From a virus, in IMG/VR virus record IMGVR_UViG_3300022868_000107, positions 1 through 22,355 of that record: 22,355 bases of DNA, one strand, 5' to 3'. Made by a program: the position numbers and the translations under genes. The notes below the pieces were generated by a model that worked only from the letters and a program-made list of their open reading frames with translations, ran no database searches and had not been told where the DNA came from. Numbering within the stretch: position 1 is the first letter of the stretch; each line of letters starts with the position of its first letter. Positions 9,790 through 21,735 of the stretch are shown here, one piece after another.

Positions 9790-10971
9790 TTAAACTCCTA
9801 AATCTAAGAATCTTTTAAGGTCATTTATTCTGTCGATTTTTTCCCATGTAAATCCTTTCTCACATCTTCCAAAGTGTCCACCAGAAGCCGTATTTCTGTA
9901 TACAGGTCTTTTTAAATCAAGACTCTCAATTATTCCTCGTGGAGTCATATCGAACACATTTCTAATCGCTTTAGTTAATTGATAATCTGACACTTTTCCT
10001 GTATCAAACGTATCCACCTTTATTGACACAGGCTCTGAAACTCCGATTGCATAGGCAAGCTGTATCTCGCATCTCTTGGCAAGCCCTGCCGCGACGATGT
10101 TTTTAGCGATATATCGTGCCATATATGCACCTGACCTGTCGACCTTTGAAGGGTCTTTTCCAGAAAAGCAGCCACCACCATGACGAGCGATTCCACCGTA
10201 GGTATCGACAATGATCTTACGCCCCGTAACTCCACAGTCTCCTTTAGGACCACCTATAACGAATCGTCCTGTAGGATTTATATGGTAGAGAGTCCTATCG
10301 TCGAGAAGGTTTTCAGGGATGACATCTTTGATGAGAGCAAGCATATCCTTATGGATAGTATCATAGTCGACGTCGGCTGAGTGTTGCGTTGAGATTACGA
10401 CAGCTTCGACACGCTGAGGGGTATTATTTTCATCATATTCTACGGTTACCTGGCTTTTTGCGTCGGGACGAAGGTAGGCAATATCATCATTGACACGACG
10501 GTTTTGCAACTCTTTGATAAGAGCGTGTGATAGCATTATTGGTAACGGCATAAGTTCTGGTGTTTCATCACAAGCATATCCGAACATCATGCCCTGATCT
10601 CCAGCGCCTTGCTCTTTATGAAGCCCCTCTCCGTTTGTAACGCCTTGCGATATATCCTTAGACTGCTTCTTGATATTGACAAGTACAGCACAGGACTCCG
10701 AGTCGAATCCTAAAGATGAATCATTATATCCAATTTCTTTAATAACATTTTTTGCTATATCTGAGCAATTAACGTAAGTCTTTGTTGTTATCTCACCAGA
10801 TATCACAACAAGTCCTGTTGATACAAGTGTTTCACATGCAACTCGAGATTCTGGATCATCGGTGAGACATGCATCAAGAACGGCGTCTGATATCTGGTCT
10901 GCTATTTTATCAGGATGACCCATCGAAACGGATTCAGATGTGAAAAATGATATTGATCTTGAATTTTCCAT
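9790..10971 (-). CDS. metK: S-adenosylmethionine synthetase
   Basis: Makes SAM from methionine and ATP. It is full length (393 residues; bacterial enzymes about 380-400) with all main signatures in order: [17 protein letters not shown] with His19 and Asp21, [54 protein letters not shown] and [19 protein letters not shown]. The usual GGGAFSGKDP has Cys for Ala here. No damage is visible, so the enzyme should be active. It lies between a DNA methyltransferase gene (24 nt upstream) and terS (stop 4 nt away), inside the late operon, and is unusual cargo for a phage. AAGGGG precedes the ATG by ten nt. Confidence 0.96.
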
Positions 10972-10994
10972 TTATATATTACCCCTTGATCTTG

Positions 10995-12230
10995 CTAAGA
11001 TCTTAAAACACCAAAATTTATCCCTGTTTTTTCATTAGTAGCCTGCTTCCCTGTAAAATCCTGCCATCTATTTATTATGACGTCACAATACCTCGGATCT
11101 AGCTCAATAGAATAACTTGTCCTTCCAGTCTTTTCACATGCCAATACTGTTGTTCCTGATCCGCAAAACCCGTCAAAAACAACAGCTCCTTTCCTTGAGC
11201 TATTAGTGACTAAGTACTCAAAAAGAGCTACAGGCTTCATTGTAGGATGTTCAGCATTTCTTTGAGGTCTGTCAAATTCAAGAAGCGTTGTTTGTTTTCT
11301 ATCAGTTTCCCACGTATGAGCAGCTCCATCTTTCCATCCATAAAGACATGGCTCATGCTGCCAATGATAATCCTGACGTCCTAAAACAAATGCATTCTTA
11401 GCCCATATCAGGCATTGTCTTACTTTTAAACCAACATCTCTACATGTACCTCTGAAATTATACCCTTCTGAATCAGCATGCCAAATGTAAAACGATGCGC
11501 CCTCTTTCATTATATTATGTGCAGATGAATAGCTATCTTTAAGAAACGACCTGAAACTTTCGTCATTCATCGAGTCATTTTCTATTGTTAATGAGTCCGC
11601 AGTCTTTCCCTCGTAAGCAACATTATAAGGAGGGTCAGTCAACCATAAATCAGCTTTAACATTACCCATAAATGATTCAACTAATTCAATATCAGTGCTG
11701 CTTCCACATAAAAGCCTGTGATCTCCAAGCTTCCATATATCCCCTACCCTTGACATAGGCTTTTCTGGCAACTCTGGAAGCTCGTCAGGATCAGTAAGAC
11801 CCTCTGTTCCTCCCTCTCCATCTTTTTCAAACCCTATCTCTTCGAAGTCTTTTTCAGTAAAACCAGTAGTATCAACATCAAATCCAAGAGCCGAAATCTC
11901 TTCAAACTCTATGCGAAGTAGTTCATTATCCCACTCTGCAAACTCTGCCATCTTATTCACAGATATGCGAAATGCTTTCAGTTTTGCTTCTGTCATGTCA
12001 TCAGAAATAATGACAGGGACTTTTGCCATATTTAATTTTTTAGCAGCTTTAAGACGAAGGTGACCGTCAATTATAGTACCGTCTGACTTAACCAATATCG
12101 GTATTCTAAAACCAAATTCTCGTATACCTGCGGCGAAATTATCTACTGCGTGATCGTTTTTCCTAGGATTCCTTGCGTACTCGATCAATCTTTCGATATC
12201 CCAGTACTCTATCTCCATCTTTTCTTCCAT
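10995..12230 (-). CDS. ParB-domain DNA methyltransferase fusion (beta-class N6/N4 amino MTase)
   Basis: 411 residues in two parts. Residues 1-130 form a ParB/Srx-like domain with GTIIDGHLRLKAAKKLN (51-67). Residues 160-410 are an amino-methyltransferase with DPPY (199-202), then HPTMKPV (328-334), then FDGFCGSGTT (352-361) and ELDPRYCD (376-383). Motif IV precedes motif I, which defines the beta class. It should methylate adenine or cytosine amino groups in a specific DNA site using SAM. No cognate endonuclease is seen, so it is an orphan. A strong site (AAGGA, six nt) precedes the ATG. The ParB part may aid DNA scanning or binding; that is inferred. Confidence 0.92.
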   Translation of the reverse strand: MEEKMEIEYWDIERLIEYARNPRKNDHAVDNFAAGIREFGFRIPILVKSDGTIIDGHLRLKAAKKLNMAKVPVIISDDMTEAKLKAFRISVNKMAEFAEWDNELLRIEFEEISALGFDVDTTGFTEKDFEEIGFEKDGEGGTEGLTDPDELPELPEKPMSRVGDIWKLGDHRLLCGSSTDIELVESFMGNVKADLWLTDPPYNVAYEGKTADSLTIENDSMNDESFRSFLKDSYSSAHNIMKEGASFYIWHADSEGYNFRGTCRDVGLKVRQCLIWAKNAFVLGRQDYHWQHEPCLYGWKDGAAHTWETDRKQTTLLEFDRPQRNAEHPTMKPVALFEYLVTNSSRKGAVVFDGFCGSGTTVLACEKTGRTSYSIELDPRYCDVIINRWQDFTGKQATNEKTGINFGVLRS

Positions 12231-12876: not shown

Positions 12877-13066
12877 GATATTTCCTTTGTTTTGTATTTT
12901 TAAAAATACGACGCGGGTAATTACTCCCGCGCCACCTTCTAGGATCCACTACAGATTTCCAGATTGACTCTTACGTCACTAGTAAACGTCTTCGTCTCAC
13001 AGCATATCTGATATGATAGTGCATTGTCTATCATCCAGCTCGCGACTGCTGGTCTGAAGGAATTAA
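12877..13066. other. Gap between tRNA and small genes with several short inverted repeats
   Basis: No convincing gene is seen in these 190 nt. On the minus strand there is a 7-bp stem (ATGATAG with CTATCAT, around 13019-13034 on the plus strand numbering), a CCAGC/GCTGG hairpin just after the tRNA, and ACGT half-sites around a CTAGT core near 12973-12990. A 31-codon frame starting with the ATG at 13034 ends in this gap but lacks a usable ribosome site. The stretch may be an RNA-processing leader or the remains of further tRNA-like genes. Confidence 0.35.
12894..12931 (-). terminator. GC hairpin with T-run, terminator- or attenuator-like
   Basis: Minus strand: CGCGGG and CCCGCG (12931-12926 and 12917-12912) form a 6-bp all-GC stem with an 8-nt loop, followed by TCGTATTTTT. 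The T-run is half of a perfect 16-bp palindrome (GTATTTTTAAAAATAC, 12894-12909). It lies 18-36 nt before the start of the 57-residue gene, so it may attenuate read-through into the methyltransferase operon. Confidence 0.42.
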
Positions 13067-13143
13067 ACCGCGGAGCCGGACTTGAACCGGCGACCTAGTG
13101 AAGGATTTCCCCCATCTCTCTCTACCAACTGAGCTATCCGCGC
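13067..13143 (-). tRNA. tRNA-like gene with aberrant anticodon arm, possibly tRNA-Phe(GAA)
   Basis: The minus strand has TAGCTCAGTTGGTAGAG (box A-like D arm) and a perfect T arm (GCCGG-TTCAAGT-CCGGC), with AGGTC just before it and an acceptor stem of six bp plus a G-G mismatch at position 1. Between D arm and T arm there are 26 nt instead of the usual 22. The best anticodon stem I find is GATGG/CCTTC with one T-T mismatch and the loop GGGAAAT, giving GAA (Phe), but position 33 is G rather than T. No CCA is encoded. It is either a degenerate or unusual phage tRNA; the isotype is uncertain. Confidence 0.6.
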
Positions 13144-13147
13144 TTGT

Positions 13148-17349: not shown

Positions 17350-17925
17350 TTATTTACCTTCTTGTCGAAGATCGTGCATATTGAAAAGGTCTATTATAGT
17401 ATTCTCTGTCGCGAAAAGTCTGCTTGATATTCTTTGACCATAAACATCATAAAATTCTTTCTTTGACAGGTTGCTAGTTATAATAGTCGGAGACATCTCT
17501 TCATATCTGTAATCTATAGCATCAGTTAAAACCTCTTCACGCCAGTCTGTATGTCCTGACGAACCTATGTCATCTAGTATGATGATATCATCATCAATCA
17601 ATGTCTGCATGTAGTGAAGATAATCTCCGTTTGAAGAACTTCCGATTGAAAGCCTTATAAGCCTTAGAAACTTTCGCTCATCATAGGCTCTTATGCTACT
17701 AACCTTGTCATGAAGTTCCGCAAGCAACGCAGAGCATAGATATGTTTTTCCTACGCCTGCTGTGCCTATTACCACTAAGAAGTTTTTGGGTTTAGCGAGC
17801 CATCCCGATATCCGTTCAGAAGCTTTAAGATTAAACCCTGTTCTGGCAAGGCTTGCTCCGATGAATCTCTTTCCGAAAAAAACTCGTTGTAACTCTTCTG
17901 ATTTTTGTGTAGCTTGGATTTGCAT
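17350..17925 (-). CDS. DnaC/IstB-type helicase loader ATPase
   Basis: 191-residue AAA+ ATPase. Walker A GTAGVGKT (54-61), Walker B DIIILDDIG (113-121), sensor I TIITSN (147-152) and Arg-finger region QRISSRLF (164-171) are all present. DnaC/DnaI-type loaders put the replicative helicase on the origin with the initiator. The ATG at 17925 has AGGA ten nt upstream, inside the initiator gene, which it overlaps by 151 nt in another frame. The N-terminal 50 residues are needed for the usual family layout, so I keep this start. Confidence 0.88.
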   Translation of the reverse strand: MQIQATQKSEELQRVFFGKRFIGASLARTGFNLKASERISGWLAKPKNFLVVIGTAGVGKTYLCSALLAELHDKVSSIRAYDERKFLRLIRLSIGSSSNGDYLHYMQTLIDDDIIILDDIGSSGHTDWREEVLTDAIDYRYEEMSPTIITSNLSKKEFYDVYGQRISSRLFATENTIIDLFNMHDLRQEGK

Positions 17926-18782
17926 TTTGCATTATTCCTGTTTTGTGATTTATGTGATGAGCCTTGAGAGCTGTTTTCTCTTGAGGCTCTTTTTTTGTGT
18001 TCTCTGTTTCTTACTATTGTTCCTTCTAAGAACTTCCACCAGTCATAAATAGCGCTATCGTAGTTTATAAGCGCTTTCCATCCATAGTCTATTTCTTCTA
18101 TAGACCAGTCAACTTTCTTATTTACAACAACTCTTATAAGCTCCGTTCTATTAATTATCGTTGTCGACCCATCCTTCTCCTTGATCTTTATCTCAGAAAT
18201 AGGCGACCTTTCTGGGTCGTCCCTTACAACTTCCGAATTAGGATCTTTCTGATTAGGATCATTACATGGGTGATTTTCACCCTTAGGCTCAAGGGTGATT
18301 TTCACCCATGGGTGATTTTCACCCTTAGGCTTTTCATCTTTTGTTTTCTTGCCTAAGCTCCATTGTAGAATCCAGCTGTCTCTACAAGCCTTACCGTTTT
18401 CTTTATTGTAAAGCTCATCAAACCTCTTTCCCATTTTTTCTTGATTTTGATATAAAACATAAGACGATCGCTTCTGACCGCCAATTCCAGTAAAGGAAAC
18501 GATTGAAAGAAGAGGAACTCCCATTTCTACTGTTGGAAGTTTTAGCTCTCGTATTATCTTCTTTAGCTTTTGATCGCCCCACCCCAGTTCTTCCATTATC
18601 GTATCTTGTATTTTTGTAAACGTGTCAAGCTCTGAAATATAAGCTAGGAACATAAAATGATCGGAGTTTAAGCGTATTGCGTTGCCGTCTTTAGGCATAA
18701 ACGATAGATATCTTAGTATCTTTGGAATCTGAACGTATGGTGATTTTGCATGTACTGTAAAAGTGTCTTCTTGATCTGTCAT
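17775..18782 (-). CDS. Phage replication initiator (winged-helix N-terminus, DnaD-like layout)
   Basis: 335 residues. An N-terminal helix-rich domain (DHFMFLAYISELDTFTKIQD, about 42-61, then a winged-helix-like LGWGDQKLKKIIRELKLP) is followed by a charged linker with the repeated peptide PKGENHP, then a C-terminal part with IDYGWKALINYDSAIYDWWK and a basic Ser/Asn/Lys-rich end. The order initiator then loader is typical of phage replication modules. The linker region carries a cluster of dyad DNA repeats that may be the origin. GGAG lies five nt before the ATG. The last 50 codons overlap the loader gene in another frame. Confidence 0.75.
   Translation of the reverse strand: MTDQEDTFTVHAKSPYVQIPKILRYLSFMPKDGNAIRLNSDHFMFLAYISELDTFTKIQDTIMEELGWGDQKLKKIIRELKLPTVEMGVPLLSIVSFTGIGGQKRSSYVLYQNQEKMGKRFDELYNKENGKACRDSWILQWSLGKKTKDEKPKGENHPWVKITLEPKGENHPCNDPNQKDPNSEVVRDDPERSPISEIKIKEKDGSTTIINRTELIRVVVNKKVDWSIEEIDYGWKALINYDSAIYDWWKFLEGTIVRNREHKKRASRENSSQGSSHKSQNRNNAKCKSKLHKNQKSYNEFFSERDSSEQALPEQGLILKLLNGYRDGSLNPKTS
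18265..18331. repeat. Iteron-like repeat cluster inside the initiator gene (candidate replication origin)
   Basis: Three exact copies of the dyad GGGTGATTTTCACCC lie at 18268-18282, 18293-18307 and 18310-18324. The first and third are part of a 25-bp exact direct repeat (18265-18289 and 18307-18331). The middle copy is in a different reading frame, giving VKIT where the others give GENHP, so the repeat is kept as DNA, not as a peptide. Lambda-type origins with iterons inside the initiator gene are the precedent. Confidence 0.72.
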
Positions 18783-20131: not shown

Positions 20132-20322
20132 TGACAGATCACATACTAACAATGGCGATAGACGCTCACTACGAGCCGACTCTACTTGAATGCTTTCACT
20201 GCAAAGAAATGTTCTACGACGAAATAGTCTACGAGTCAAAACATAATGAGGAGTTCGTCTTTTGCAGCGAAGAATGCAAAGATGAGTTCGATACTAACAG
20301 AGAACAAGAGGAAGTAGCATAA
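20131..20322 (+). CDS. 63-residue zinc-finger-like protein
   Basis: The ATG at 20131 has GAGGAG eight nt upstream. Two Cys pairs, CFHC (residues 20-23 or so) and CSEEC (about 46-50), separated by about 22 residues, are spaced as a treble-clef or zinc-ribbon site. The end is acidic. Both neighbours overlap it by 1 nt. No family name is known to me. Confidence 0.65.
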   Translation: MTDHILTMAIDAHYEPTLLECFHCKEMFYDEIVYESKHNEEFVFCSEECKDEFDTNREQEEVA

Positions 20323-21206
20323 TGTCACTGATACCGCATAAGAAGATCGTAGATATATACGCTAGAATGGGTTATGAAGAGGCTTCTGTATATCCTTCTG
20401 ATGAGATAACAATAATGAGGTCAAAGCACGATGGAGAGTTCATGACGATAACGGGGTCTTCATGGAAAAAGGGTTATCACGACAAATTCGAAGAAGAAAA
20501 AACAGAGATAAACAAACAAAACGAGGAAGGCAAAATGAATGAAAATATCAAAACTACGGCAGAAGAAGAAAGTAAAGACGTTAACACTGAAAACAAGGGA
20601 GGCTTCACCATCACGCATGGCGGCGTTACGTCTACGGATGGAATTGGAAAGCTCTCTTTAGCTTTAGCAAAAGCGCAGGGATCTTTCGATCCTGTTACAA
20701 AGGATAAAGTTAACCCACATTTTAAAAGCTCCTTTGCATCTATAGACTCAATATTAAAATCGACAAGAGTTCATCTATCTAATAATGAGCTTATCTTAAT
20801 GCAATTCCTATCCGGAGATCAGAATACAGTAATAATAATAAGCCGAATAATGCATTCTTCGGGGCAGTGGATACAATCAGAAGTTTCGTGCAAAACTGAA
20901 CGTAATACAGCGCAGGGGCTCGGAAGCGTAACAAGTTATATGAGAAGATATGCTATGGCAGCTCTTCTTAATATATCAGCCGACGAAGACGAAGACGGCA
21001 ACGCAGCATCTTTTATAGATAAAAACCAGATTTCATCAATAGAAAGAATGCTCGAAAACTATCCCGAAGTTAGACGTAAAATGATTGCTGAATATAAAGA
21101 ATTCAAGCTTATGCCTGCCGATTTATATCTTGAGAACATTGAAAAGATAAATAAAAATATAAAATATATTGATGACAAGAGACTGGCTGACAAGCAAAAA
21201 GGATAA
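20322..21206 (+). CDS. erf: ERF family single-strand annealing protein with extra N-terminal region
   Basis: 294 residues. Residues 107-230 show the ERF domain: GKLSLALAKAQGSFDPVTKD, NPHFKSSFASIDSILKSTR, SGQWIQSEVSCKTERNTAQG, then SVTSYMRRYAMAALLNISAD. ERF proteins anneal complementary strands in phage recombination, usually with an exonuclease; a YqaJ-type nuclease follows here. The first 71 residues are not part of the family and read like a small separate protein. An internal ATG at 20535 with GAGGAAGG upstream would give an ERF of usual length. Both products are possible. Confidence 0.88.
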   Translation: MSLIPHKKIVDIYARMGYEEASVYPSDEITIMRSKHDGEFMTITGSSWKKGYHDKFEEEKTEINKQNEEGKMNENIKTTAEEESKDVNTENKGGFTITHGGVTSTDGIGKLSLALAKAQGSFDPVTKDKVNPHFKSSFASIDSILKSTRVHLSNNELILMQFLSGDQNTVIIISRIMHSSGQWIQSEVSCKTERNTAQGLGSVTSYMRRYAMAALLNISADEDEDGNAASFIDKNQISSIERMLENYPEVRRKMIAEYKEFKLMPADLYLENIEKINKNIKYIDDKRLADKQKG

Positions 21207-21735
21207 CCCTCAACAAGCGAACGATATGCAAATTCGAAACGTGGTATGCGAAAACTGTCGGAAAGTTTTCGATAGAGACGTAAATCGACACAAAAGAGCG
21301 GAACATCACTACTGCTGCATGAAGTGTGGACACGAACACGCTCTGAAGCTTAATCTCGAAGAGGCTGTCGGAAAAAGGTTTGGGAATCTCGTTGTGTTGC
21401 GATACTGCGGCAAAGATGTCCACGGTCGCAATATGTGCCTTACTCGATGCGATTGCGGTGCTGAAACGGTGAAGGCTTTAAGTCTCGTAAGGTCTGGTAA
21501 ATCAACACGATGCGATAGGTATTGCGTGGCAGATAAAAAAGTAAAGGAGAAGGCTAAAAAAGAACTTGAAGACTCAATAAAAGAAAAACGCATAACCAAA
21601 TCGGTTAAGACTTTTATTCGAGAAATGAGCGATGGTTCAGAAGAATACATCAATCTTATAGCTAAGATGTATCGCCTCGAGAAAGAAGAAGTAGAGGAAA
21701 TATTAAAAGGAGAGGAATTACAAAATGACAACTAG
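21172..21735 (+). CDS. Zinc-finger phage protein, unknown role
   Basis: About 187 residues. It has an N-terminal double finger (CENC, then YCCMKCGHEH), a segment VGKRFGNLVVLRYCGKDVHG followed by RCDCGAETVKALSLVRSGKS and two more Cys, then a basic helix-rich C-terminus. The GKRFGNLVVL-RCDCG pattern is common in phage DNA-associated zinc proteins. The start is uncertain: ATG at 21172 overlaps erf by 35 nt without a good ribosome site, and ATG at 21226 is an alternative just before the first finger. Confidence 0.68.
   Translation: MTRDWLTSKKDNPQQANDMQIRNVVCENCRKVFDRDVNRHKRAEHHYCCMKCGHEHALKLNLEEAVGKRFGNLVVLRYCGKDVHGRNMCLTRCDCGAETVKALSLVRSGKSTRCDRYCVADKKVKEKAKKELEDSIKEKRITKSVKTFIREMSDGSEEYINLIAKMYRLEKEEVEEILKGEELQNDN

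Follow-up and report, generated by a model that had tools for sequence, protein, structure and literature searches.

Three identical dyads inside an orphan phage gene: a candidate replication origin within a putative initiator gene

Why should a single gene of an uncultured phage carry three identical dyads near its middle, and are they there for the protein or for the DNA? The window analyzed here is the whole 22,355-bp virus record, and it contains exactly three exact copies of GGGTGATTTTCACCC, each with perfect 6-bp arms and a 3-bp centre. Since the containing gene lies on the minus strand, the coding-strand form of the dyad is GGGTGA-AAA-TCACCC. The gene and the elements of the array are as follows.

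17775-18782, minus strand: putative replication initiator gene encoding P0001 (335 aa), which holds the dyads; an ORF whose N-terminal domain resembles that of viral initiator L008
18268-18282, no strand: dyad copy 1, GGGTGATTTTCACCC, encoding GENHP
18293-18307, no strand: dyad copy 2, the same 15 bp in the other reading frame (VKIT)
18310-18324, no strand: dyad copy 3, the same 15 bp in the frame of copy 1
18302-18315, no strand: composite 14-bp palindrome TCACCCATGGGTGA, seen in the sequence and made up of half-sites of dyad copies 2 and 3

The dyad array and the coding sense of the gene

The start-to-start distances between the dyads are 25 bp and then 17 bp, which shifts the middle dyad into a frame other than that of its two neighbours: copies 1 and 3 read GENHP, while copy 2 reads WVKITL. 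In the third frame the dyad would open with a stop (GGG-TGA), so only two frames are usable by it, and the array occupies both. Copies 2 and 3 are separated by a gap of 2 bp and together make up the 14-bp palindrome. On the plus strand of the window the GGGTGA half-site occurs only at the three dyads, and no further copies of the dyad were found in the record outside the array. When up to three mismatches were allowed on both strands, seven matches to GGGTGATTTTCACCC were obtained against 0.35 expected, a number that was reached in none of 100 shuffles.

The array was compared with a null model in which synonymous codons were permuted inside the gene, with the protein and the codon usage preserved. 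Three dyad copies were obtained in 0 of 10,000 such shuffles and two copies in only one of 10,000, and any repeated perfect dyad in 0 of 2,000. The coding sense thus fails to explain the array. A preliminary description of this DNA had held that three exact 15-bp dyads lie inside the gene, that the middle one is in a different frame from the outer two, and that coding cannot account for their identity, and all of this was borne out. The same result bears on a role of the repeat at the protein level, as a peptide serving the linker. PKGENHP is indeed encoded by two of the copies, and in-frame 15-bp repeats (e.g., PQVEN) occur in a number of other initiators, but the middle copy encodes WVKITLE and the shuffles never yield the three copies. 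This is the last in rank of the four alternatives weighed here, and it is scarcely credible.

Copies 1 and 3 have 25 bp in common at a distance of 42 bp (14 codons), so that an in-frame duplication could account for the outer pair, but for that pair alone. The middle copy lies in the other frame with its flanks inverted and its centre unchanged, which indicates that it was at the level of DNA that the copies arose or were retained. The 25 bp shared by the outer copies would suit a neutral history, in which a recent duplication or the insertion of a mobile palindromic element was tolerated in a disordered linker, but the middle copy speaks against it. The scatter of copies expected of dispersed palindromic elements (REP or RPE type) was not observed, as the record holds only these three, and initiators unrelated to one another have this short dyad in their linkers as well (see below). 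Neutral repeats, third in rank among the alternatives, are very improbable.

The array might also act as RNA, with hairpins in the transcript acting on the initiator-loader operon at the level of transcription, RNA stability or translation. The 91-nt transcript indeed folds far better than its shuffles (-34.5 kcal/mol, z -6.3), but any DNA dyad array folds in this way, and DNA parameters give the same z. There is no Rfam match at the array, and such arrays recur in initiator genes while their arms change from one relative to another, as would be expected of protein binding sites. A function as RNA, the second of the alternatives, is accordingly judged improbable.

The repeats had also been called conserved as DNA. 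This applies only within the array; the sole relatives of the gene that came to light belong to two further contigs of this virus (L004 and L005), 99.98% identical. Both contigs extend past the right end of the window, and each has one inserted base relative to it at about position 21211, near the end of an Erf-like ORF (20322-21206) and within the ORF at 21169-21735.

The containing gene and its surroundings

The gene product and the regions flanking the array provide the following additional features.

18510-18623, minus strand: putative helix-turn-helix region in the N-terminal domain (residues 54-91), from a profile alignment with the L008 family
18183-18362, minus strand: putative linker (residues 141-200), encoded by the array and its flanks and delimited by residue composition
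17350-17925, minus strand: DnaC-like helicase loader gene, next downstream of the P0001 gene (phrog_50, E 3.1e-32; IstB_IS21, E 5.5e-12)
18226-18264, no strand: candidate AT-rich unwinding stretch, weak, 67% AT, with a 15-bp direct (tandem) repeat at 18230-18259

The array spans residues 153-171 of P0001, ~450 bp into the gene. The linker is 18% hydrophobic and 73% disorder-promoting, compared to 37% and 40% hydrophobic residues on its two sides. Features of a lambda-type origin are found here, namely repeated dyads in the middle of a putative initiator gene, their independence of the reading frame (two frames and the codon-shuffle null) and a helicase-loading gene directly downstream, which encodes the DnaC-like loader. 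The best AT-rich flank, at -46.4 kcal/mol per 40 bp, is within the least stable 10% of the gene; it is weaker than that of lambda (-44.1) and than those of most, or at least several, relatives. A GC-skew minimum near 19 kb was not used, as it coincides with a gene-strand switch.

P0001 was found to match no family in Pfam, PHROG or NCBIfam and no sequence in the PDB, and because of this lack of a family match its role as an initiator is one that we infer. It has no match to the Pfam family Phage_rep_O even at E 10 (the protein of an unrelated virus, L006, scores 33.9 bits against a cut-off of 28.7) and none to the RepA_N domain (the Enterococcus initiator L048 scores 95.9). No homologues beyond the same virus were found in viral contigs (two scans), phages, plasmids or the PDB. 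Structure prediction for P0001 alone gave a pLDDT of 36, too poor for use, and prediction of the N-terminal domain aligned with L008 relatives gave 46, likewise too poor for use and unable to confirm the helix-turn-helix. Foldseek yielded no significant match in PDB or BFVD; some weak PDB matches were winged-helix proteins, but these were not taken as evidence.

Elsewhere in the window, a complete S-adenosylmethionine synthetase gene with all three Pfam domains (9790-10971) has as its immediate same-strand neighbour an N6/N4 DNA methylase gene (10995-12230); with this pair (9790-12230) the phage possibly supplies the methyl donor for methylation of its own DNA. A tRNA-Phe (GAA) gene is located at 13066-13144 on the minus strand.

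Recurrence of the layout in other initiator genes

In a first scan, viral contigs were searched with a pattern of two such dyads, and the matches besides the same virus were L006 and L008. The Phage_rep_O protein of L006 also matches phrog_678 ('replication initiation O-like'), and its gene, which adjoins a DnaB-type gene, contains two exact copies of the same dyad, mid-gene, in two frames and with 23-bp spacing (GENHPAPRVKITP). The L008 protein matches phrog_428 ('replication initiation protein'), and its gene carries GGGTGATATTCACCC twice, mid-gene, in two frames and with 25-bp spacing. A search for the same dyad spacing in homologous initiator genes had been proposed beforehand; the dyads were indeed found in the initiator genes of L006 and L008, with the 25-bp spacing in the latter, but the only homologues of P0001 itself were those of the same virus.

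A looser scan added Bacteroides phage B40-8, with three copies of GGGTGAAAATCACCA in two frames, as well as L012 and L015, also with dyads in two frames. Where it matched structural genes, the copies were for the most part unequal, rich in GC and confined to a single frame. The Enterococcus RepA_N initiators L048 and L050 contain an identical dyad, GGGTGAAAATCACCC, mid-gene, with all copies in one frame. The four annotated iterons of lambda occupy frames 0, 2, 2 and 1 of gene O.

The specificity of the motif was assessed with a scrambled-arm control pattern (GTGGA...TCCAC, twice) in viral stretches. It matched 27 stretches, of which ~22 were counted in initiator genes, mostly in linkers; nine of the proteins were scanned with profiles, and the remaining loci were assigned from near-identical N-terminal sequences. 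Seven of the nine match replication-initiation or DnaD-like PHROGs, the exceptions being L071 and L092. The set comprises just a few distinct families, and many of its members have their repeats spaced by 15 bp, in frame. With GAGTG as a third arm, a single match was obtained, outside initiators. Since the scrambled-arm control yielded at least as many initiator matches, the view that recurrence of this exact dyad is special was rejected, and the dyad is not special in itself. Dyad arrays are common in the linkers of phage initiator genes, and their arm sequence varies.

This pair of dyads is frequently found outside initiators when bacterial chromosomes are considered, e.g., where ATPase-like genes have their 5' ends, and the motif is thus not diagnostic on its own; in virus L011 the pair lies between genes. 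These locations bear on a further alternative, that the dyads are control operators: P0001 itself, or a repressor of the phage, would act on them to regulate either the P0001 gene or the loader gene that follows it. An operator role would be natural for the intergenic pair of L011, and pairs at or near gene 5' ends (bacterial L035, L039 and L042) point the same way, but the array of the P0001 gene is well inside the gene, in the linker, where the dyads of initiator genes recur, and there is no operator-like copy at the start of the P0001 gene. Control operators are the foremost of the alternatives, yet still unlikely. In the three bacterial loci (Gemmatimonadota and an uncultured bacterium) the GGGTGA...TCACCC sites are 22 bp apart, and the genes encode similar ATPase-like proteins with an ARQTGKSTL motif; the pair is possibly an operator there.

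A candidate origin and its putative initiator

When 20 initiator N-terminal domains were compared with that of P0001 against shuffles, the nearest was that of L008 (z 6.7; next best 2.8), whose gene has the same dyad arms as the P0001 array. In hhalign, P0001 and the L008 family were aligned over residues 54-91 with P 7e-4, at a probability of just 27%. Two relatives of L008, L096 and L097 (~60% identical to it), carry a different dyad, TGTTGAAATCAACA, twice and in the same place. They read GITDH.WRKS in the helix region, versus GWTEYQYKKS in L008, and their similarity to the P0001 N-terminal domain (z 1.4-1.6) is far below that of L008. These comparisons, which involve few sequences, fit recognition of the dyad by the N-terminal domain. 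The P0001 helix residues follow L008 over its relatives at 9 versus 4 positions, which is not significant (p 0.13). Among Bacteroides phage initiators, L056 and L057 are 70-92% identical to L065 after the linker, not before it, and the linker repeats differ, as if the N-terminal domain and the dyads had been swapped as a unit.

Taken together, the three dyads most probably represent iterons for dimers of the encoded putative initiator and the core of the phage replication origin (probability roughly 0.78). This interpretation is based on the codon-shuffle null, on the DnaC-like loader gene next door and on the finding that other initiators show the same layout. It is further based on the location of the scrambled-arm matches, mostly in initiator linkers, on the three frames used by the lambda iterons, on the shared arms of L008, which has the nearest N-terminal domain, combined with the lower similarity of the relatives bearing TGTTGAAATCAACA, and on the established placement of the origin within the initiator gene in lambda and pSK41 (PMC7466680, PMC6022878, PMC5703833). 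Against it stand the lack of a match of P0001 to any initiator family, the lack of a usable structure model, the weak AT-rich flank, and the fact that some bacterial genomes, as well as an intergenic region of one virus, carry the same dyad pair away from initiators. The DNA role proposed in the preliminary description, that of lambda-type iterons bound by the protein encoded around them, is thus supported, as coding fails to explain the repeats, a loader gene adjoins and the layout recurs.

The gene would then encode an N-terminal domain that binds DNA, followed by a tolerant linker, the coding DNA of which serves as the origin, and by a C-terminal part. Through its N-terminal domain the initiator would occupy all three dyads, and, once bound, it may bend and pack the DNA and open the neighbouring AT-rich stretch. 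Helicase loading would presumably then pass to the DnaC-like loader, whose gene lies immediately downstream.

In the lambda origin, the dyad iterons midway along gene O are occupied by dimers of the O protein, which also destabilise the AT-rich tract next to the iterons (PMC6022878, PMC7466680). Both that origin and the P0001 array contain several hyphenated dyads with an A-rich centre, mid-gene and in several frames, and in both cases a helicase-loading gene comes next (P in lambda, the DnaC-like gene here). However, lambda has four dyads of 18 bp, compared to three of 15 bp at distances of 25 and 17 bp in the P0001 gene, and the arms differ; moreover, O belongs to Phage_rep_O, to which P0001 is not assigned by profile, and the AT-rich region is weaker here. 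Rep of plasmid pSK41 attaches to mid-gene boxes through an N-terminal winged-helix domain, and the linker encoded there is dispensable (PMC5703833). RepA_N plasmid initiators of this type resemble P0001 in having their sites, the Rep boxes, in the gene centre, and the dyad of the Enterococcus proteins L048 and L050 is identical to that of P0001, but it is confined to one frame there versus two here, and P0001 has no RepA_N match. The L008 family (phrog_428-like) shares with P0001 the dyad arms, the 25-bp spacing, the use of two frames and the closest N-terminal domain; L008 has two copies with the coding-strand centre ATA, whereas the P0001 array has three copies, and L096 and L097 use TGTTGAAATCAACA. 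L006 has the same exact dyad in two frames, but in two copies with 23-bp spacing, and its Phage_rep_O protein, encoded beside a DnaB-type gene, has no detectable similarity to P0001.

It is conceivable, though doubtful, that the GGGTGA-AAA-TCACCC site is a shared origin code, recognised alike by Phage_rep_O, RepA_N, L008-like proteins and the orphan P0001, with exchange of the N-terminal domain and linker dyads moving origin specificity between phages and plasmids.

The location of an origin within an initiator gene has been known since lambda, and the novelty lies in a further probable example of it, this time in an orphan gene. An uncultured phage with a family-less replication protein thereby gains a candidate origin and a putative initiator, both of them testable. 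Frame-independent dyad arrays in the middle of genes can flag initiators that are overlooked by protein profiles, and natural pairs of N-terminal domains and dyads offer a route to determining which residues recognise which site.
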